This document shows, in pieces, positions 33,197 through 44,075 of a stretch of 64,000 nucleotides of DNA. Origin of the DNA: Bacteroidota bacterium (GTDB lineage Bacteria > Bacteroidota > Ignavibacteria > Kryptoniales > JAKASW01); NCBI GenBank assembly GCA_021789975.1, contig JAJYIT010000004.1, positions 62,001 to 126,000 on the forward strand, given 5' to 3'. Both the position numbers and the translations under genes were made by a program. Under the pieces are notes generated by a model. That model was not told the origin of the DNA and ran no database searches. It saw only the letters and a list, made by a program, of their open reading frames with translations. Numbering within the stretch: position 1 is the first letter of the stretch; each line of letters begins with the position of its first letter.

Positions 33197-34552
33197 TCAG
33201 AATGTTATTGTGAATACGGTCTTTTCGCCGGGATGCGAGTAAACGCTGATCGATGCGTGGTGCATGTGAAGTATCTGGCGGGAGAGACTCAGGCCGATAC
33301 CAGATCCAGTTTCTCTCGTCGTGAAGAAAGGTATGAAGATTTTTTCCTGCAGGTCTTTGGGGATTCCGGGCCCGTTGTCGGCCACGCGGATAATCACCTT
33401 ACCTCTTTCCTCAAGTTGCGCAGTCATCTCTATCTTTCCAGAGGGAGTCTTGTCGAGAGCCTGCGCAGAATTGGCGAGGAGGTTCAGTAGTACTTGCTCC
33501 AGCAAATCGGGGTCAGCAGTAAGCTCGAGAGTTTCAGGCTCAACTCTGCTGGTCAAACTGATTCCGCTTTCGCCGATTGATGACTTTATGAGTTGCTCTA
33601 CGCGTGCGAATAACAAGGAAACGGGGAAGATTCTCAGCTTCGGAACCGGAATGTGTGTAAGTGTTCTGTAAGAATTGACAAAGCGGAGGAGACCTTCGCT
33701 TCTGCTCTCTATCGTGCTGACCGCAGTCCTTACGTCGTTCAGGACCGGGTCCGCCGGCTCTCCAGTATTATGGCTTTGAAGTTGAGGACCTGAAAGTAGC
33801 TTGTTTGCAGTGGAGGCAAGCGATGCAATGGGAGTGATAGAATTCGCTATTTCGTGGGTGAGGACTCTTATCAAATTCTGCCAGGCGTCCAGCTCAATCT
33901 CTTCCAATTCGCCCCGCATATCCTGCAGTGATGCGAGACTATACTCTGTTCCTCTCATGCTGAACTCAGAGATCTGAACAGAAAGTCGAACAGAAATGTT
34001 GTCGTTCTCTATGCGGACGATGTTGCGGCTTCTCGGATTGCGGCTTCCCAAAATCTCACACAGCTCATCGCTTAAGGCGCCAAGCTCTTCAATGTTTTTG
34101 AGATGGGGTATTCCCAGCAGTCGCTTTGCGGCAGAGTTTATCATCTCGACTTTGCCGTCGTGCTGGAAGACTATCAATCCTACATTGAGTCTTTGTACGA
34201 CAAACTGGAAATATTGAAACTGGCTCTCACTCTCCGCTTTGACCTCTTCGAAGCGGCGAGTTATTCTGTTTAGTGTCAGATTAAGTTCATCGAAAGCCCT
34301 GCTCTTTTTGGAGACACTGAAGGCTTGTGTAAAATCGTCCGATTCAACGGCCTCCAGGAATCGGGTTAGATTCTGATTTCTTTTTTCTATCCATCGATAC
34401 ATTGCGAAAACTTGGTACGCAGCAAGTAGACCCCAAAGCGCAGCCATCTCGTATAGGGCGGTATGGAAAAGGAAAAAGGCAAAAAGGGAAACGGTCCCGG
34501 CGAGCAGAACCACGCGCAACACTGTCGCTAGGCGGAAACGGTCAAAAGTCAT
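33197..34552 (-). CDS. membrane sensor histidine kinase, NtrY/NtrB-like
   Basis: A 451-residue kinase. Two membrane helices lie within the first 50 residues (VLRVVLLAGTVSLFAFFLF, then AALWGLLAAYQVFAM), with no large outside domain. A coil and a PAS-like domain (GLIVFQHDGKVEMINSAAKRLLG) precede the phospho-acceptor helix LIRVLTHEIANSITPIASLA. The ATPase domain has NLLANSAQAL, VADNGPGIP and GSGIGLSLSRQI. It starts inside the last codons of the NtrC-type regulator (4-bp overlap), so it is its cognate kinase. The pair is divergent from a MacB-like ABC exporter that has a sigma-54 promoter. Confidence 0.92.
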   Translation of the reverse strand: MTFDRFRLATVLRVVLLAGTVSLFAFFLFHTALYEMAALWGLLAAYQVFAMYRWIEKRNQNLTRFLEAVESDDFTQAFSVSKKSRAFDELNLTLNRITRRFEEVKAESESQFQYFQFVVQRLNVGLIVFQHDGKVEMINSAAKRLLGIPHLKNIEELGALSDELCEILGSRNPRSRNIVRIENDNISVRLSVQISEFSMRGTEYSLASLQDMRGELEEIELDAWQNLIRVLTHEIANSITPIASLASTANKLLSGPQLQSHNTGEPADPVLNDVRTAVSTIESRSEGLLRFVNSYRTLTHIPVPKLRIFPVSLLFARVEQLIKSSIGESGISLTSRVEPETLELTADPDLLEQVLLNLLANSAQALDKTPSGKIEMTAQLEERGKVIIRVADNGPGIPKDLQEKIFIPFFTTRETGSGIGLSLSRQILHMHHASISVYSHPGEKTVFTITF

Positions 34553-35958
34553 GATGTTTCATTTTGATCCCTAACATGAATCCCGAGCCTACTGATCCTT
34601 CTGTAAAGAGCTGTCCTTGTCAGGCCGAGTTCTCGTGCCGCTGCGGTGATATTTCCCCCGTTCTTATCTATTACAGACTGAATATGTTCCTTCTCTACAA
34701 ACTTGAGTGACTGGCCCTGGTTTCCATCATTGTCGGGAGGGTTCTCGGCCCGTTTGAAAGTGATCTCCCCGGGACGAAGCATTTCCGAGTCGCTCAATAT
34801 TACTGCTCTCTCAATTACATGCTGCAGCTCTCTTACGTTTCCGGGCCATCGATATTCAGTCAGGAGCTTCATTGTTTCGTGGGACACACGGATCTCCGGC
34901 TTCTGATATTTTCTGCCGTGAATCTTCACGAAGTGTTCGACTAGCAATGCAATATCGTCCGGTCTTTCGCGGAGAGGAGGAAGACTGATTTCGACGGTGT
35001 TGATCCTGTAAAGCAGATCTTCCCTGAACATTTTTTCAGCAACCATATTGTGGATCGGCATGTTGGTGGCAGATATGAGTCTTATATCAACCGGGCGGGT
35101 CCGGTTTGAACCAACCCTAGTGACTTCACGTCTGTCGACTGCAGCGAGCAGTTTCGCTTGGAGGGCGAGCGAAAGGTTTGCGATCTCATCGAGGAAAAGT
35201 GTTCCACCGGAGGCAATCTCGAATCTCCCCGCACGCTCATTTGTCGCGCCGGTAAATGAACCTTTCTCATGCCCGAAGAGCTCGCTGTCAAAAAGGGTTT
35301 CACTGATTGCCCCCATATCGACGACAATAAACGGGTTCTCTCTTCTCGAAGAGAAACGGTGGATTGCGCGTGCGATCAGTTCTTTGCCCGTGCCGTTCTC
35401 ACCAAGGATCAGTATGTTTGCGTCCGTTCCCGCAACTTTTCTTATCGTGTCGAATATGCGCGTGATGCTTTCTGATTTGCCGACTATGTCTTGAAAGGGT
35501 TGGTCGAGGTCAGCGATGAGTAGCTTCTCCCTCGTTCTCAACGTTGCGAGCTCAAGCTGTGATTCACGCAGTCTCATCGCGGAGGATAGCGTGGCTAATA
35601 TCTTTTCATTTTGCCAGGGCTTGACCACAAAGTCGGTGGCACCCTCCTTAATGGCCCGTACCGCCGTCTCGATGTCGCCGTAAGCGGTAATGAGTATCAC
35701 GACTGCGCTCCTGTCAATCGAAAGGATCTTGTTCAACCATTTGAAACCCTCCTCACCGGTCGTGGACCCCTTTTGGTAGTTCATATCAAGAAAGACCACG
35801 TCGTATGGTTTTGATTTGAGCCTTGTTTCTATATTGTTAGGATCCCTCTCCGTTTCGACAGATTGGACATGCGGTTTGAGGAGGAGTTCAAAAGCGGTAA
35901 GAATCGCGGGATCGTCGTCGACGATCAGTACGTTTCCGCTGTTGTCGTTATTTGGCAT
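34549..35958 (-). CDS. NtrC-family sigma-54 response regulator
   Basis: About 469 residues: an N-terminal receiver (NVLIVDDDPAILTAFELLL, phosphorylatable Asp in VVFLDMNY), a central AAA+ domain (Walker A GENGTGKE, the sigma-54 contact motif GAFTGA, Walker B LFLDEIANLS) and a C-terminal Fis-type HTH (NGGNITAAARELGLTRTALYRRI). It should drive sigma-54 promoters after phosphorylation by the kinase encoded next to it. Start: ATG 35958, or ATG 35979 seven codons earlier; neither has a clear Shine-Dalgarno sequence. A good sigma-54 promoter faces the divergent ABC genes, the most likely target. Confidence 0.93.
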   Translation of the reverse strand: MPNNDNSGNVLIVDDDPAILTAFELLLKPHVQSVETERDPNNIETRLKSKPYDVVFLDMNYQKGSTTGEEGFKWLNKILSIDRSAVVILITAYGDIETAVRAIKEGATDFVVKPWQNEKILATLSSAMRLRESQLELATLRTREKLLIADLDQPFQDIVGKSESITRIFDTIRKVAGTDANILILGENGTGKELIARAIHRFSSRRENPFIVVDMGAISETLFDSELFGHEKGSFTGATNERAGRFEIASGGTLFLDEIANLSLALQAKLLAAVDRREVTRVGSNRTRPVDIRLISATNMPIHNMVAEKMFREDLLYRINTVEISLPPLRERPDDIALLVEHFVKIHGRKYQKPEIRVSHETMKLLTEYRWPGNVRELQHVIERAVILSDSEMLRPGEITFKRAENPPDNDGNQGQSLKFVEKEHIQSVIDKNGGNITAAARELGLTRTALYRRISRLGIHVRDQNETS

Positions 35959-36098
35959 ATTTATAAATCTAATAATCATTCACATATATTGCGAATAATC
36001 GATCAAGATGTGTATCGGAAACGAACACCCGGACGTATCAAAACCGAACAGTGGAGGAAAGAATATGCGCTTTAGGACGATTTTGCCACGATGGAATC

Positions 36099-36114
36099 AG
36101 GCACACTCTTTGCG
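36099..36114 (+). promoter_or_regulatory. sigma-54 (-24/-12) promoter of the ABC exporter operon
   Basis: AGGCACACTCTTTGCG matches the consensus TGGCACRNNNNTTGCW at nearly every fixed position. GG at 36100-36101 and GC at 36112-36113 are exactly ten bases apart. It lies about 40 bp before the ATG of the ABC ATPase and next to an NtrC-type activator gene. Confidence 0.8.
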
Positions 36115-36154: not shown

Positions 36155-36859
36155 ATGATAAGGATAAACAATCTCAAGAAGGTATATAGAAGCAACAATG
36201 TCGAGACCACGGCGATAGCCAATGCGAATCTGAGGGTGGATTTCGGCGAGTTTGTGGCGATCACCGGCCCCTCGGGGTCAGGCAAAACAACACTATTGAG
36301 CATCTTGGGCATGCTCGATACTGCGACCGAAGGGGAATACTTTTTGTTTGATACGGATGTATCGAAGTATTCAGAGCGGGAGCGTGCAGATTTGAGAAGA
36401 GAAAACATTGGCTTCGTTTTTCAAAATTTCAATCTGATCAATGAGTTGACGGTATACGAAAATATCGAATTGCCCTTGTTTTATCTCGGTCTCACATCCT
36501 CAGAGCGGCGAGAAATCGTAATGTCGACAATGGACAGGTTGCGCATCACTCCTAGGCGGAACCACTTCCCACAGCAACTCTCCGGTGGGCAGCAGCAGAG
36601 GGCAGCTGTTGCGCGAGCGATCGTCGGAAAACAAAAACTGATATTGGCCGACGAACCGACAGGAAACCTGGATTCCAGAAACGGGGAAGAAGTCATGACG
36701 CTTCTGGCTCAATTGAATGAAGCAGGAACTACAATAATCATGGTTACTCACTCCGCAGAGTATGCCAGCTGGGCAGGCAGGTTAGTTCGGATATTTGACG
36801 GTCATCTGGTGAATGAGGATATATTGACTGGAGTGCCTGGTGTTCTGGAGCTACGTTAA
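36155..36859 (+). CDS. LolD/MacB-type ABC transporter ATP-binding protein
   Basis: About 234 residues from the ATG at 36155 (MIRINNLKKVYRSNNVETTA). All nucleotide-binding motifs are present: Walker A GPSGSGKTTLL, Q-loop GFVFQNFNLI, signature LSGGQQQRAAVARAI, Walker B LILADEPTGNLD and the H-loop VTHSAEYA. This is the subfamily that powers mechanotransmission exporters such as MacB and the lipoprotein-releasing Lol complex. It overlaps the permease gene by 20 bp. Expression probably depends on sigma-54 and the divergent NtrC regulator. Confidence 0.93.
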   Translation: MIRINNLKKVYRSNNVETTAIANANLRVDFGEFVAITGPSGSGKTTLLSILGMLDTATEGEYFLFDTDVSKYSERERADLRRENIGFVFQNFNLINELTVYENIELPLFYLGLTSSERREIVMSTMDRLRITPRRNHFPQQLSGGQQQRAAVARAIVGKQKLILADEPTGNLDSRNGEEVMTLLAQLNEAGTTIIMVTHSAEYASWAGRLVRIFDGHLVNEDILTGVPGVLELR

Positions 36860-39224
36860 GACCATCTTTAGAAACATCGCGGGTTCGAAAGTATATTTCT
36901 TCATCAACGTCGCGGGGCTGGCAATCGGCTTCACGGTGTTCACACTGATAATGTTGTACGTGTTGAACGAGTTCAACTACGACACATTCAATAAGAAAGC
37001 TAACCGCATATATAGAGTGGTCGAAATTCAAGAACCCCCCGGGGCAGCAGCACAGCAGGTTGCGTTCACGATGCCTGCGCTCGGACCTGCCTTGAGGGGA
37101 CAATTTCCTGGGGTGGATGATGCTGTTCGGTATGTTCGGTGGTTCACCGTCCTATGCCACCACGGTGAAAAGCGGTTCTACGAAGATGGGCTTTCGTTTG
37201 CTGATTCGAACATTTTCAAAATCTTTACGTTTCATTTCCTGGAAGGGAATCCCAATACGGCATTGAATGGGCCCGATCGCATTGTAGTGGATCAGGCCAC
37301 AGCGAGGAAGTATTTCGGCGATGCCGATCCAATTGGAAAGTCAATCAATATTGAGGTTGGACTGCACCAGAACTCTTTCCAAGTGACCGGAGTGATAAAG
37401 GATTTCCCGTTGAACTCGCATCTGCACTTCAATATGATCGCCTCTTTCGTTACACTTGAAAAACGCTGGGATTACTTCAACGGGTGGACAAACAACGATG
37501 TGGTCACTTACGTTTTGCTCAATAAACGCGGCGGTGCCAGAGATCTGGGGAAAAGGATTGCAGACCTTATCAGAAAAAACCTCCCTCAAGCTGCGCAGGT
37601 GAGGCTGCAAATTCATCTACAATCGCTCAAGAGAATTCACTTGTACTCCACAAATATATTGTACCAGGTTAATTTTAGAAAAGGCAATGTTGAGAACGTG
37701 AGACTTTTTCTCTTGATTGCGCTTTTCGTGATAGCACTTGCATGCATAAACTTTGTCAATCTTACGACTGCCCGATCAACTGTCAGAACCAGACAGGTTG
37801 GTATTCGCAAGCTACTCGGATCACATCATTCACATCTCGTCTATCAATTCATCGGAGAATCGGTTGTATTATCTCTGGCCGGTTTGCTGCTATCGTTTCC
37901 CATCGTGGAGGCTTTGCTCCCGAAGTTTGACTCAATGATGTCTGGAAGCATTATTACCCAGTATAGTAATCAGCTAGCGTTCATCCTCGTGATGGTTCTG
38001 GCTGCAGTGATCATCGGTGTGGTCGCAGGACTCTACCCGGCACTTTACTTATCTTCATTCCGTCCCATCGAGCTCCTCAGAAGTAGGTTCTCATCAAGCA
38101 GAAGAGGAATCACCCTCCGGAAAGCGCTCACCGTTTTGCAGTTCAGCATCGCTATCGGTCTAGTCACGGGGACGGGTGTCGTTGTCAGCCAGATGGACTT
38201 TATCTACAATAGGCCTCTTGGTTTCAATAAAGAGGATCTAATCTACATACCGTTACGTGATGCCCAGTCACGCAAGCAAATCCAACTGATTCGTGACCGG
38301 CTTCTTGGAAATTCGGGGGTCGTGGCCGTCTCTGCGGGCGAAAGAACAGGGGGAGGGTCACTCCAGGGTGTAGTGATAATCCCCGGTGGGAACAGCCGAT
38401 CAAAGCTCATGGTGAGGGAGAGTTACGTTGACTACGGATACACCCATGCCATGGGGATGGAGATGGCGGAAGGTAGAGACTTTTCAAGGGACAGTCATGT
38501 AGACTCTTCATCCGTAATTATCAACGCGGCGATGGTCAGAACCCTCGGTTGGAAGGACCCTATCGGAAAACAAATACAGTTGGGCAACGGTGAAAGGTTC
38601 ACCGTAATCGGGGTCTTAAGGAATTTCAACTATTCATCGCTTCGAACGAAGGTCGATCCACTTGTCATGTGGTTTGACCCGGCCAAGTGTCAATACTTGC
38701 TCGTTAGAATTTCCTCTCATGAAAGGGAGTCTGAGGTCAATTTTGTGAAGTCGGTTTGGAACAGTACATTTCCAAACCAGCCATTCGAGTACGGATTCGT
38801 GGACAATTACCTAGACCGGATGTACGGTAATGACAAACAGAACGAAAACCTCCTCATGCTATTTTCGTTAGTTGCTGTGGTCGTTGCTTGCCTGGGCCTT
38901 TTCGGGTTGACCCTTCATACTACCGAACAGCGGGTAAAAGAAATTGGTGTCAGGAAAGTATTAGGAGCATCTATATTCAAGATCGTGTTCATGTTATCAC
39001 AGGAGTCTATCAAGCTTCTTATAGCCGCCTGCATTGTCTCTTGGCCGGTGGCTTATTTCCTAATGGACAATTGGCTTCACAATTTTGAGTACAGAATTTC
39101 TTTGAGTATCTGGATTTTTGCCGTTTCCGGATTCATCGTATTCTTTACTGCCGTGCTAACATTGAGTTTCTTGGCAATCAAGGCTGGATTGGCAAATCCC
39201 GCAGACGCACTGAGATACGAGTGA
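36840..39224 (+). CDS. FtsX/MacB-like ABC transporter permease (eight-helix, Bacteroidota type)
   Basis: A 794-residue permease starting with GTG at 36840. It has the duplicated layout of Bacteroidota FtsX-family permeases: a first helix (INVAGLAIGFTVFTLIMLYV), a periplasmic MacB-PCD domain, an FtsX core (LFLLIALFVIALACINFVNL, RTRQVGIRKLLGSHHSHLVY), a second periplasmic domain, and a second FtsX core ending near NPADALRYE. Such ABC modules export peptides, lipids or antibiotics across the envelope, usually with HlyD and TolC proteins, which are not encoded nearby. In this setting it is a candidate exporter for the cysteine-rich peptide encoded at 42.3 kb, but that link is by proximity only. 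Confidence 0.9.
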   Translation: MFWSYVKTIFRNIAGSKVYFFINVAGLAIGFTVFTLIMLYVLNEFNYDTFNKKANRIYRVVEIQEPPGAAAQQVAFTMPALGPALRGQFPGVDDAVRYVRWFTVLCHHGEKRFYEDGLSFADSNIFKIFTFHFLEGNPNTALNGPDRIVVDQATARKYFGDADPIGKSINIEVGLHQNSFQVTGVIKDFPLNSHLHFNMIASFVTLEKRWDYFNGWTNNDVVTYVLLNKRGGARDLGKRIADLIRKNLPQAAQVRLQIHLQSLKRIHLYSTNILYQVNFRKGNVENVRLFLLIALFVIALACINFVNLTTARSTVRTRQVGIRKLLGSHHSHLVYQFIGESVVLSLAGLLLSFPIVEALLPKFDSMMSGSIITQYSNQLAFILVMVLAAVIIGVVAGLYPALYLSSFRPIELLRSRFSSSRRGITLRKALTVLQFSIAIGLVTGTGVVVSQMDFIYNRPLGFNKEDLIYIPLRDAQSRKQIQLIRDRLLGNSGVVAVSAGERTGGGSLQGVVIIPGGNSRSKLMVRESYVDYGYTHAMGMEMAEGRDFSRDSHVDSSSVIINAAMVRTLGWKDPIGKQIQLGNGERFTVIGVLRNFNYSSLRTKVDPLVMWFDPAKCQYLLVRISSHERESEVNFVKSVWNSTFPNQPFEYGFVDNYLDRMYGNDKQNENLLMLFSLVAVVVACLGLFGLTLHTTEQRVKEIGVRKVLGASIFKIVFMLSQESIKLLIAACIVSWPVAYFLMDNWLHNFEYRISLSIWIFAVSGFIVFFTAVLTLSFLAIKAGLANPADALRYE

Positions 39225-39461
39225 AAGCAATCAAGCGTCTTAGCATGAGCGTGTTGCCTGAGGGTTGTTTAGGTACCCTGACAGGAACGCCGATAGCAAC
39301 CAGTCCTACCCAAAGGCAGGCATACCAATGGCAAAGGAGGTCGGGCGCTTTTCGACTCATCTTGACGCCGCATGCGTCACTCTTTGCTCTGAGTTACGTT
39401 AATAGTATTGATATCTCAGTAACACTCTCGTCGTCCGAACACATAACTCTTGGAGGGAGTC

Positions 39462-40556
39462 ATGGATGATCTAATTTTGGTCATAACCGCAATTTCACAT
39501 TTGAATATTCATCCCCTCATCTGCTGGGGCGCTGTGTGCCAGCTTGCACCAACGACATTCCATGGGTTGCATATCCTGATGTCTTCTCTGGCGGCAGTAG
39601 CAGGGTTCCCGGTTGTGAAGAACGCGGCAGCGCAAAGAGTTTACGAGCTGGCTAAAAAGCTTGCCAGATCCGAATTGCCGATGTTAATTTCAGGCGAGAC
39701 TGGAACCGGCAAAGAGATACTTGCACGGTATGTTCATGAAAACTCACCGAGAAGCTCCGCGGGGAAGTTTGTGGCCATCAACTGCGCCGCAATCCCGGAC
39801 AATCTTTTGGAAAGCGAATTGTTCGGACATGTTAAGGGCGCCTTTACTGACGCGCATAGCTATAAAGCCGGGCTCTTTTCGATTGCAGATGGCGGAACTC
39901 TCTTTTTGGACGAGGTGGCAGAGATGAGCCTCGCCGTTCAGAAAAAATTGTTGCGCGCCATCGAGTACCAGGAATTCTATCCGATTGGCTCCGTCGTTTC
40001 AAAGAAAGTCAACTTCAGGTTGGTCTGCGCGACAAGTGCTAATCTGGAGCAGATGGTAAATGTTAAGACTTTCAGAGCGGATCTCTATCATAGGATACAA
40101 GCCTGCACGTTGACACTCCCTCCTCTTCGAGAGCGGATAGATGAAATCCCCTTCCTTGTCGAGTATTTCCTCCGTGGAAAGAAACGGGACACGGTAACGA
40201 TCTCACCGGCGGTTATGGAGATATTTTCATGCTACAGCTGGCCCGGCAACATAAGGGAGCTGAAAAATGTGCTGGAGTATGCACTGGCAATCCTCGAGCA
40301 TGAAGAAAAGGCTATAGATATAGATCACCTGCCGCCGGAGAAGTTCGATAGCCTGGGATGTAGTCTCCTTCATGGCGAAAATCTGAATCTCAAGGAGAGA
40401 GAGAAATGTTTCAGGGATAACCTGGTTACGGCTGCTCTGACTCTCTTTGCGGGTGACTACAAAACAGTTGCGAAATCCCTGGGCACATCGAAGAGTGCTC
40501 TTTACAGGGCGGTGAGTTCCAAAACCGCGAAGCCGACAGGAGAAACGGTGGAATAG
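39462..40556 (+). CDS. receiver-less sigma-54 activator (bacterial enhancer-binding protein)
   Basis: About 364 residues; ATG 39462 has GGAGGG upstream. The first 55 residues are hydrophobic with no known sensor domain. The AAA+ domain follows: Walker A SGETGTGKEIL, Walker B LFLDEVAEMS, arginine-finger region FRADLYHRI. The sigma-54 contact loop reads GAFTDA instead of the usual GAFTGA. The C-terminus has a Fis-like HTH (DYKTVAKSLGTSKSALYRAV). It lacks a receiver, so it is controlled by level, by the hydrophobic N-terminus or by another protein. It lies directly before tandem palindromes and a sigma-54-like promoter in front of the radical SAM gene, its most likely target. Confidence 0.9.
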   Translation: MDDLILVITAISHLNIHPLICWGAVCQLAPTTFHGLHILMSSLAAVAGFPVVKNAAAQRVYELAKKLARSELPMLISGETGTGKEILARYVHENSPRSSAGKFVAINCAAIPDNLLESELFGHVKGAFTDAHSYKAGLFSIADGGTLFLDEVAEMSLAVQKKLLRAIEYQEFYPIGSVVSKKVNFRLVCATSANLEQMVNVKTFRADLYHRIQACTLTLPPLRERIDEIPFLVEYFLRGKKRDTVTISPAVMEIFSCYSWPGNIRELKNVLEYALAILEHEEKAIDIDHLPPEKFDSLGCSLLHGENLNLKEREKCFRDNLVTAALTLFAGDYKTVAKSLGTSKSALYRAVSSKTAKPTGETVE

Positions 40557-40760
40557 GGAGTTCAGCATCTCCCTTTAATACCCCCTCCCCGTTTTCTCTT
40601 CTTTTGAAATCAAGGAGGGAAGCGTTGCCTACTCTGGTACCTTCCGTGCGTTCTTCGCCCACCATGTCCATGATTAAGAACGCCTATCCATTTTGATTCT
40701 TTCACCTGATCTCTGCTCTTCGATTTTGAATCGAATGTTGAGAAGACTGAAATTTCGTTC

Positions 40761-40818
40761 GAAGCTGTTTTCCCAGTTCTGGGAAATTTTGAAGCTGCTT
40801 TTTCCCGTTTGTGGGAAA
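40761..40818. promoter_or_regulatory. two tandem 18-bp palindromes, likely enhancer sites for the sigma-54 activator
   Basis: Site 1 (40769-40786) is TTTCCCA-GTTC-TGGGAAA, a perfect palindrome with a 4-bp spacer. Site 2 (40801-40818) is TTTCCCG-TTTG-TGGGAAA, with one mismatch. Each is preceded by GAAGCTG(T/C)TT, so the unit is a tandem duplication. The centres are 32 bp apart, three helical turns, placing both on one face of the DNA. They lie 60-90 bp upstream of a -24/-12-like element, the usual place for enhancer-binding-protein sites. Confidence 0.78.
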
Positions 40819-40863
40819 ATCTCGTCCACATCCCTATCAATCATACCAAAAACCCACGTTGCG

Positions 40864-40879
40864 TGGCACGATATTGGAA
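40864..40879 (+). promoter_or_regulatory. sigma-54-like promoter of the radical SAM gene
   Basis: TGGCACGATATTGGAA has a perfect -24 half (TGGCACG). The -12 half is imperfect: TGGAA or TTGGA against TTGCA, depending on spacing. It lies about 35 bp before the ATG, downstream of the tandem palindromes and next to a sigma-54 activator gene. The context raises confidence in an otherwise partial match. Confidence 0.55.
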
Positions 40880-40914
40880 CATATTGTTATCGAAATCAAA
40901 ATCGGAGTGATAGA

Positions 40915-42240
40915 ATGGACTACAAGAAGAGCCGCTATAATGTGACAGTTAAGACAGAACATGGAGCACGTGTGTTTAACTCGCGAACAGGGGCTGTCGT
41001 AGAGTTTTCAGAAAGTGATCCGCTCTTCTCCCGCTTTCAGGAAACGTGGACCCAGCAGAAGTTTCATCTCGCCGATCATGAGTGGCTGCAGGCCCTTAAA
41101 GAAAGAGGGTTCATCGTTCCGGAGGATTTCAATGAGATACCTAGTTACATCTCGTCTTTCAACGCGAGGATGGCGAGCAAGGAACAGGTAAGACTGATAG
41201 TCTTGCCGACGGAGGAGTGCAATTTTAGGTGCGTGTATTGCTATGAAAGTTTCTTAAAACCGCAGATGCGTGCCGAAACCCAGGAAGCGCTCAAGAGATA
41301 CATCTCAGCCACTATGGAACGCGTTAAAGGCTTCGAGATCGAGTGGTTTGGTGGGGAACCATTGGCTGGAATCGATGCCATGAGGAATATTTCCACGCAT
41401 GCTGTAAAGGTCGCCAATGAACACGGCGTTTCGTTTAGTGCCAATGTCACAACGAATGGCTACCTGCTTACACCCGAGGTTTTTGAGGAAGCAGTCAACC
41501 ATTGGGGAATCTCCCATTATCAGATTACAATTGACGGCCCACGGGAATTCCATGATCAGCGCCGGGTTCTCAACGGTGGCGGAGAGACGTATGATCAGAT
41601 CGTGTCGAACATTGCACATATCGCAAAGTCGGATTATCCCGACCTCATGTACATAATCAGGATGAATGTAGACAGAGACAATCTCAAGACAGTAGCTGAA
41701 TTTGCAAGAACTGTCAAAGACCTGGTCGGTGATGATCCCAGGGCGCGGTTTTTCGTGCGACCGGTCTGGGGAAAGAGCAAGTTTGAACTTCTCACAAATT
41801 TCGAACAAAGGAGTCTCAGGAGACAAATAGTAGATATATGCAACGAGGTTGGTCTCCGATTGTTCGACGTGGATCTCGTCCTAAACCCGCAGCTCGGGAT
41901 GTGCTATGCCGCCGATCCCCGGTCCTTAGTGATCGGGACTGACGGCTCCATTTACAAATGTACGTCAGCATTTGAACTCCCCGAGAACCTGGTCGGCAGG
42001 TTAACTCCAGACGGAACGATACAAATAGATCGTGACAAATTCAGCCTCTGGGTCGAATCGAGCATTGAGAAGTATCCACAGTGCAGGCATTGTGCTGTGT
42101 TGCCGATATGCAACTCAGCGTACTGCCCGAAGGAGCATGTTACTAGAGAAAGGGGTACGGATGAACGTCCGGAGTGTCCCCCGTTCAAGGATGAAATGAA
42201 GATGCTTGTGCAAGTCGCTCATCAGAAGGCAACTGCGTAG
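40915..42240 (+). CDS. radical SAM/SPASM peptide maturase
   Basis: A 441-residue enzyme from ATG 40915 (CGGAGTG upstream). The N-terminal about 85 residues (YNVTVKTEHGARVFNSRTGA...) form the small leader-side domain common to peptide-modifying SPASM enzymes. The radical SAM cluster is CNFRCVYC (Cys102, 106, 109), followed by EWFGGEPLAG and NVTTNGYLL. The C-terminal SPASM region holds the auxiliary Fe-S cysteines: GMC, YKC, CRHCAVLPIC, YC and EC. Such enzymes install thioether or C-C crosslinks in ribosomal peptides. A 35-codon cysteine-rich peptide gene starts 76 bp downstream. Anaerobic sulfatase maturases share the fold, but no sulfatase is nearby. Confidence 0.92.
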   Translation: MDYKKSRYNVTVKTEHGARVFNSRTGAVVEFSESDPLFSRFQETWTQQKFHLADHEWLQALKERGFIVPEDFNEIPSYISSFNARMASKEQVRLIVLPTEECNFRCVYCYESFLKPQMRAETQEALKRYISATMERVKGFEIEWFGGEPLAGIDAMRNISTHAVKVANEHGVSFSANVTTNGYLLTPEVFEEAVNHWGISHYQITIDGPREFHDQRRVLNGGGETYDQIVSNIAHIAKSDYPDLMYIIRMNVDRDNLKTVAEFARTVKDLVGDDPRARFFVRPVWGKSKFELLTNFEQRSLRRQIVDICNEVGLRLFDVDLVLNPQLGMCYAADPRSLVIGTDGSIYKCTSAFELPENLVGRLTPDGTIQIDRDKFSLWVESSIEKYPQCRHCAVLPICNSAYCPKEHVTRERGTDERPECPPFKDEMKMLVQVAHQKATA

Positions 42241-42316: not shown

Positions 42317-42424
42317 TTGAAGATCATCGTAGAACCAAAAGTGGAGGTAGAGTCGGATTCCGATTCGCGGCAACCCGGAGCTAACTGCCTGTTTTGCAAT
42401 ACGCTGTTTTGCACGGCAGACTAG
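42317..42424 (+). CDS. candidate RiPP precursor peptide, 35 residues, Cys-rich C-terminus
   Basis: TTG at 42317 sits 8 bp after an ideal Shine-Dalgarno AAAGGAGGTG. The peptide has an acidic leader (MKIIVEPKVEVESDSDS), a short linker (RQPGA) and a core NCLFCNTLFCTAD, in which a (x)LFC unit occurs twice and three cysteines are spaced C-x2-C-x4-C. It lies immediately after a SPASM radical SAM enzyme and nothing else separates them. Short size, acidic leader and Cys-rich tail are what a maturase substrate should look like. I do not recognise it as a named RiPP class. The +1 frame right after the stop encodes three more cysteines, which raises the possibility of a longer product. Confidence 0.75.
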   Translation: MKIIVEPKVEVESDSDSRQPGANCLFCNTLFCTAD

Positions 42425-42791: not shown

Positions 42792-44075
42792 ATGAGCCGT
42801 GAAGGTAAGATAACATATGTGAAAGAGAGCGTCGTCGGTAAGGTAGATCCTATGAGAAACACAACTTACATGGTCGGACGGATATCAGATGAAGTTAACG
42901 AGCGGCAGTTGGAAGAACGGCTCTTTCAATCACAACGGCTTGAAGCATTGGGCACTCTAGTCGGAGGGATCGCCCACGACTTCAACAACATACTCAATGT
43001 TATAGCGGGTCATGTCTCGCTGATGGAGAGGTGGAGGTCGGACCCAGAACGATTCATGAGAAGTTATGAAGCCGTGAAGAAAGCAACCGAACGCGGCGCC
43101 AACACTACGAGACAACTTCTTACATTTGCGCGGAAAATTGAAGTAACTACAGAGTCGGTACGAATAGACGACCTGGTTGATGAAATTGTGGATCTCCTTA
43201 AAGGGACTTTCCCCGAAAGAATAACCTTCCACGTTGAACTGGATAAGGGGATTCCGGAAATCTCCGCAGATTCAAACCAGATCCATCAAGCACTTCTTAA
43301 TCTCTGCATGAACGCGCGTGATGCCATCGGGGAGAGTGGAACTATAACCATTGCCGCAAAGAACTCGGGCAATGATTTCGGAACCCGTCATTATCTCGAA
43401 TCCGTGGCTGAGCGCTATGTTCAACTAAGCGTATCGGACACAGGATCGGGAATGGACAGCGATACTCTCCAGCATATATTCGAACCATTCTTCACGACAA
43501 AGAAGGATGGACGTGGCACCGGTCTTGGGCTATCTGTCGTCTTTGGAATAATGAAGGCACACAAGGGGTTCATAGATGTAGAAACTAAGATCGGCGAAGG
43601 AACCACTTTCTATCTTTACTTTCCGATCATGTCGAACTTCACTGACGAACCGCCCAGACTAAAGGAGAAAGATGAGTTGCCAAACGGCCACGATGAGTTA
43701 GTTCTGATTATTGAAGACGAGGAATCGCTGAGGGATTTCCTGAAGACGATTTTAGAAGAGAGTGGATACCGTGTCTTATTGGCTCCCGACGGGATAGCAG
43801 GTCTTCAAGAGTATCGCAAACATACGAAAGAGATCGACCTCGTGCTTCTCGACATGGGGCTTCCTGAAATGGGCGGCGGTGAAGTTCTCAAAGAGCTCGT
43901 CAACCTGAATTCAAAGGTGAAGGTGATTGCTGCGAGCGGTTACCTTGAGCCTGAAGTGAAAATAGATGCATACGATATCGGGGCGTCAGAATTTCTCGCG
44001 AAGCCATACCAGACAAACGAACTATTGGGGAAAGTGCGAAGCGTGCTGGAAGGAAAGGCCAGAAGACAGATATAG
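42792..44075 (+). CDS. hybrid histidine kinase with C-terminal receiver, N-terminally short
   Basis: A 427-residue kinase. The start REGKITYVKESVVGK...NTTYMVGRISDEVNERQLEERL resembles the last strands of a PAS domain and its coil, so most of the PAS sensor is missing. Then come the H-box LVGGIAHDFNNILNVIAGHV, the ATPase domain (NLCMNARDAI, VSDTGSGMDSDTLQHIFEPF, GRGTGLGLSVV) and a receiver (LVLIIEDEESLRDFLKTIL, with Asp in LVLLDMGLPEMGG). There are no membrane segments. A stop lies four to ten codons upstream in frame, so the PAS loss is real in this sequence. It may signal to the nearby sigma-54 activators or may be a remnant. Confidence 0.87.
   Translation: MSREGKITYVKESVVGKVDPMRNTTYMVGRISDEVNERQLEERLFQSQRLEALGTLVGGIAHDFNNILNVIAGHVSLMERWRSDPERFMRSYEAVKKATERGANTTRQLLTFARKIEVTTESVRIDDLVDEIVDLLKGTFPERITFHVELDKGIPEISADSNQIHQALLNLCMNARDAIGESGTITIAAKNSGNDFGTRHYLESVAERYVQLSVSDTGSGMDSDTLQHIFEPFFTTKKDGRGTGLGLSVVFGIMKAHKGFIDVETKIGEGTTFYLYFPIMSNFTDEPPRLKEKDELPNGHDELVLIIEDEESLRDFLKTILEESGYRVLLAPDGIAGLQEYRKHTKEIDLVLLDMGLPEMGGGEVLKELVNLNSKVKVIAASGYLEPEVKIDAYDIGASEFLAKPYQTNELLGKVRSVLEGKARRQI

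Follow-up and report, generated by a model that had tools for sequence, protein, structure and literature searches.

Paired palindromes and a sigma-54-like promoter are conserved in front of a radical SAM RiPP maturase gene in Kryptoniota-related Bacteroidetes

What turns on a RiPP operon whose maturase gene follows a gene for an enhancer-binding protein? This question is raised by a stretch of 64,000 nucleotides from a Bacteroidota bacterium (the window), in which a sequence-only reading had pointed to two palindromes ahead of a possible sigma-54 promoter. The features of the locus, several of them predicted, are collected in Table 1.

Table 1. Positions of genes and predicted control elements in the window.
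Feature	Position	Strand	Remarks
Histidine kinase, partner of the 34549-35979 regulator	33197..34552	-	
NtrC-type response regulator (receiver, AAA+, Fis HTH_8)	34549..35979	-	divergent to exporter
Second enhancer-like tandem repeat, TGTATCGGAAACGAACA / CGTATCAAAACCGAACA	36011..36050	+	23 bp apart; before exporter
Second sigma-54-like promoter, AGGCACACTCTTTGCG	36099..36114	+	before exporter ATPase (ATG 36155)
Exporter ABC ATPase, nearest DarD type	36155..36859	+	ORF opens 36008; conserved start 36155
MacB/FtsX permease, nearest ADOP type	36840..39224	+	
Receiver-less enhancer-binding protein (activator): AAA+ sigma-54 domain, GAFTDA, putative C-terminal Fis-like HTH	39462..40556	+	TTG start at 39450 also possible
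Distal enhancer palindrome (predicted), TTTTCCCAGTTCTGGGAAAT	40768..40787	+	centre ~112 bp upstream of predicted start
Proximal enhancer palindrome (predicted), TTTTCCCGTTTGTGGGAAAA	40800..40819	+	centre ~80 bp upstream of predicted start; 32 bp from distal
Sigma-54-like -24/-12 element, TGGCACGATATTGGAA	40864..40879	+	GG-N10-GA; orthologues GG-N10-GC or GT
Predicted transcription start	40890	+	from promoter geometry, 12 bp past -12 position
Radical SAM/SPASM RiPP maturase	40915..42240	+	
35-aa precursor, MKIIVEPKVEVESDSDSRQPGANCLFCNTLFCTAD	42317..42424	+	TTG start; related peptides after maturase in 7 relatives
Hybrid histidine kinase, C-terminal receiver	42792..44075	+	conserved downstream

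The sequence-only reading had described two copies of TTTCCC(A/G)-N4-TGGGAAA centred 32 bp apart, and both were confirmed in place, with core sequences TTTCCCAGTTCTGGGAAA (40769-40786) and TTTCCCGTTTGTGGGAAA (40801-40818). Together with their flanking bases, both cores form 20-bp dyads whose centres are separated by exactly 32 bp. Allowing up to two mismatches, the window holds 5 matches to the described pattern versus 1.1 expected, and the genome search that had been proposed for further palindromes returned no other exact copy, the two palindromes being the only exact matches to TTTCCCRNNNNYGGGAAA in 4.7 Mb. The accompanying claim that each lies within a longer tandem-repeated unit did not hold up. 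GAAGCTG precedes each palindrome one base out of register, and with a shift of 32 bp the units agree at 20 of 37 positions; the repeat is not kept in relatives and was not reported by Tandem Repeats Finder. On register and lack of conservation the longer unit was rejected, the palindromes alone being conserved.

The -12 half of the promoter had been called imperfect, and the window indeed reads GG-N10-GA in place of GG-N10-GC, while the orthologues have GC (six) or GT (two) at the equivalent position. Scored by itself, this -24/-12 match is one of 29 equally good sites in the window versus approximately 20 expected for the two strands together (base-shuffled copies give 6-12 per strand) and, taken alone, is not significant. 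Since the element is unremarkable on its own sequence, the whole case rests on comparison. The genome encodes RpoN (PF04552 at contig C83, E 1.1e-52), and a promoter scan found no forward sigma-70 promoter. A short GGGAGA-type stem (40555-40574, z -0.9) lies directly past the activator stop codon and is possibly a weak terminator dividing two transcription units.

We compared the window with eight other genomes of the genus that carry an orthologous maturase (61-72% identity). Palindromes missing from homologous loci had been named as a finding that would speak against sigma-54 control; the pair was found in 9/9 loci, always with exactly 32 bp between equivalent bases, its members lying approximately 149 and 117 bp ahead of the start codon. 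GG-N10-G(C/T/A) is likewise present at every locus, 55-58 bp beyond the proximal palindrome and beginning approximately 50 bp before the start codon, and the spacers are unconserved. The palindrome sequence varies by locus: several have TTTTCCAGAA-TTCTGGAAAA, and the window and G005 have the TTTTCCC type. Symmetry is largely preserved through paired changes: 7 of 18 dyad position pairs change on both sides, giving a covariation score of 0.215 versus at most 0.074 in slid controls. Read from the aligned loci, this pattern is the footprint of two predicted dimer sites and a candidate promoter.

Several observations count against the sigma-54 reading. The window has 55 bp between proximal palindrome and promoter where 57-58 bp is usual, and its -12 half reads GA; with an off-consensus -12 half and a spacing 2 bp short, the window copy may be weaker. 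In addition, G005 keeps pair and promoter, yet has no close relative of the activator, either adjoining or elsewhere in its 90%-complete assembly. At this locus (L021, contig C205), restriction-modification methylase-like genes stand in for exporter and activator, with palindromes and promoter retained.

Similar pairs recur at other loci. A genus-wide pattern search identified nine more, and a tenth was reached through the activator homologue of G004 (three each in G002 and G009, two in G007, one each in G005 and G004). Most of these ten are also recovered, several over the whole length of the model, when the training set is limited to the nine maturase promoters. Searching 110 bp beyond each pair placed the best -24/-12 match 53-59 bp from the proximal-palindrome centre in 19/19 pairs, 16 of them at 57-58 bp. 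The mean score at that place over the 19 loci was 17.3 of 21, versus 9.4 for shuffles (sd 0.5; maximum of 300, 10.9). When 149 genomes of the class were searched, two borderline matches and no others appeared outside the genus, and thus the module looks confined to the genus.

Radical SAM maturases stand behind the pairs at G002:C36 and at G004:C60, where precursor and maturase follow. The G002:C4 pair precedes an operon encoding a LuxR-type regulator and several radical SAM/SPASM proteins, and the pair at G009:C255 precedes a relative of the same regulator. Members of a lipoprotein family lie behind the pairs at G002:C26, at both loci in G007 and at G009:C366, while the remaining pairs are found before an AraC-like gene (G005:C97) and at a contig end (G009:C274). 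The G002:C4 operon (L060), which has the same enhancer pair, also encodes a weakly cyclase-like protein, a SCIFF/PapB-like maturase and two proteins with SPASM as sole recognised domain, one of the two having a signal-peptidase-like part. At G004:C60 (L045), a sister activator is accompanied by its own palindrome TTTCTCGTTTAAGAGAAA, a sigma-54-like site, a Cys-rich precursor, the maturase and an ABC transporter. The lipoproteins (L061, L062, L063 and L067; G002, G007 and G009) have no Pfam or NCBIfam match; their homologues in the genome of the window (contig C20) have no pair upstream, and one has an in-frame stop.

Scanning genome contigs with a single maturase gave no match, and an alignment-based scan succeeded. 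A sigma-54 activator lies within approximately 7 kb in only two of 71 more distant maturase relatives (L111, and L166 from Elusimicrobia). Both loci carry a divergent NtrC-type response regulator and, just upstream of the maturase, a TGGCAT-N5-TTGA element (TGGCATAAAAATTGA / TGGCATAAGAATTGA). For this maturase group, control by sigma-54 may have more than one origin.

That the gene just upstream encodes an enhancer-binding protein was upheld. The product is of NtrC/PspF type, with an AAA+ sigma-54 interaction domain (PF00158, E 2.3e-63) and GETGTGKE and GTLFLDE in its translation. Its GAFTGA loop position reads GAFTDA in 6/6 aligned orthologues; GAFTDA is among the variants that still activate, and a target has been given for such a protein (PMC4641369). 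Pfam makes no HTH_8 call at the C-terminal HTH-like sequence GDYKTVAKSLGTSKSALYRAV, which we counted against the reading, and an AlphaFold model built from six sequences only (mean pLDDT 40.5) was too poor to be used. The presumed recognition helix is SKSALYR in the window, SKTEIYR in a truncated sister at G002:C36 and SKDVIYR in G004, and half-site base 6 is C at all three of these loci; in six other orthologues the helix is SKSTVYE and base 6 is mostly A or G. Since the YR or YE of the helix and base 6 differ in step, albeit in a small sample, the activator family is indicated as the binder. The N-terminal 50 residues are hydrophobic in four orthologues (window 39462-39620, L018, L019 and L020; 19-residue means approximately 1.5-1.9; start codons uncertain) and not in two others, and the activator is possibly membrane-associated.

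Downstream, the closest named family of the maturase is TIGR04463, of which it is a relative and not a member (208 bits versus a cut-off of 525). Peptides resembling MKxxVxPKV...PGxNCxxCNxxxCxxD are found in 8/9 loci, with those of G011 and G005 diverging from the core; the ninth locus, in G003, ends at a contig edge. The precursor of the window matched no NCBIfam family.

Taken together, the locus appears to hold a conserved sigma-54 enhancer and promoter through which the neighbouring activator very probably turns on the RiPP operon. The layout had been called textbook sigma-54 control, and it is supported by nine orthologues, fixed geometry, a conserved gene order, RpoN and the NtrC/PspF-type neighbour. 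We propose that dimers of the 39462-40556 protein would bind both palindromes, three helical turns from each other on the same face of the DNA, and assemble into an AAA+ ring. This ring would contact RNA polymerase-sigma54 at TGGCACG-N4-TGGAA, using ATP for promoter opening, and transcription would run from near 40890 into the maturase, the Cys-containing precursor and probably the hybrid kinase.

Near-perfect dyads are also common operators, and the palindromes could serve another dimeric regulator, either a repressor or the two-component regulator of the exporter, while the adjacent enhancer-binding protein acts elsewhere. The persistence of the pair in G005 with no activator next door would fit such an arrangement, as would those pairs in other genomes that precede genes away from this activator. 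However, the pair always stands approximately 57 bp upstream of a -24/-12 element, which is enhancer geometry, and the recognition helix changes in step with the half-site. Moreover, the tandem motif next to the gene for the exporter regulator is a different one, and good pairs are missing from genomes that lack the maturase and a close activator. We therefore consider a different regulator improbable.

Less probable still is that the palindromes act as RNA, as hairpins or terminators between the activator and maturase genes. They fold well as RNA (-19 kcal/mol, z -3.6), but the dyads of relatives are perfect and loopless (TTTTCCAGAATTCTGGAAAA), as is usual for sites that proteins bind in double-stranded DNA, and lie at a constant 32-bp spacing; the terminator scan makes no call at the palindromes and no Rfam match was found. 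Having considered folding, the terminator scan and Rfam, we rejected hairpin, riboswitch and terminator readings. As for chance palindromes beside a chance promoter-like match, the 29 sites of that -24/-12 score in the window would allow it, but conservation in nine orthologues and independent recurrence of the same geometry at ten other loci already refute it, and we give this explanation next to no weight.

If the activator does switch on the maturase operon, the exporter region suggests what might act above it. The exporter proteins fall below the curated cut-offs of their nearest types (DarD, 257.5 of 375 bits; ADOP, 274.6 of 622.3). Ahead of their genes, the best site for a AGGCACAATCTTTGA-like promoter element is at the same place in 7/7 loci, and a different tandem repeat, TGTATC-N5-CG-N-ACA, occurs with copies 21-23 bp apart, at 58-60 bp from the GG of the -24 half. 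The permease gene is directly followed by the activator gene in most relatives; in the window the gap is approximately 230 bp. That the exporter has a sigma-54-like promoter and tandem sites of its own, next to genes for a two-component pair, suggests a two-step sigma-54 relay, a reading that we put forward tentatively, as a whole, at somewhat short of an even chance. The two-component pair encoded at 33197-35979 would act first, on the 36099 promoter, which would serve the exporter and, in most relatives, also the activator gene that comes directly after it. Through the 32-bp enhancer, the activator would in turn drive maturase and precursor. Either this activator or its sister proteins would, in some relatives, also bring a number of radical SAM peptide operons and surface lipoproteins under joint control. 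The relay would place a kinase and a regulator above the activator, and this would account for the latter working without a receiver of its own. If true, export and self-protection would be ready ahead of the peptide.

Most RiPP operons have been found by genome mining and are silent in the laboratory. Here the switch is readable from sequence, and the operon should come on when the receiver-less activator is expressed together with RpoN. Further members can be sought by the fixed geometry (32 bp, then approximately 57 bp), and the paired change of helix and half-site amounts to a small experiment of nature on how sister activators avoid each other's targets.

The novelty is modest: a known mechanism built of textbook parts is met in a new place, the control of RiPPs in Kryptoniota-related Bacteroidetes, in a module that recurs across the genus before other peptide operons. 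Such control had been described as rarely reported for RiPP maturase genes, which fits the searchable open literature, where we found no paper that describes radical SAM RiPP operons under sigma-54 control (subscription papers lay outside this search) and none on TIGR04463 or Kryptonia RiPPs. The TIGR04463 radical SAM/SPASM maturases are the nearest named family, the window maturase being below their cut-off and its precursor unmatched. In E. coli, the two strong glnA sites are spaced 32 bp. The glnA/NtrC system, the textbook case of an AAA+ activator on tandem sites (PMC7408454), is alike in its tandem activator dimer sites approximately 80-140 bp upstream of a sigma-54 promoter and in its looping, whereas the window activator has no receiver, a different site sequence and a RiPP operon as target. 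PspF, which has no receiver, and DVU2106 of Desulfovibrio vulgaris, whose GAFTDA variant still activates (PMC4641369), are comparable single-component sigma-54 activators, although their targets differ and no PspA-like partner was recognised at the window locus. Finally, Nla28 of Myxococcus xanthus is a sigma-54 enhancer-binding protein that activates natural-product genes, those for polyketides and non-ribosomal peptides, through tandem sites (PMC7910581); it does so within a starvation cascade, whereas the gene for the window activator is part of the RiPP locus.
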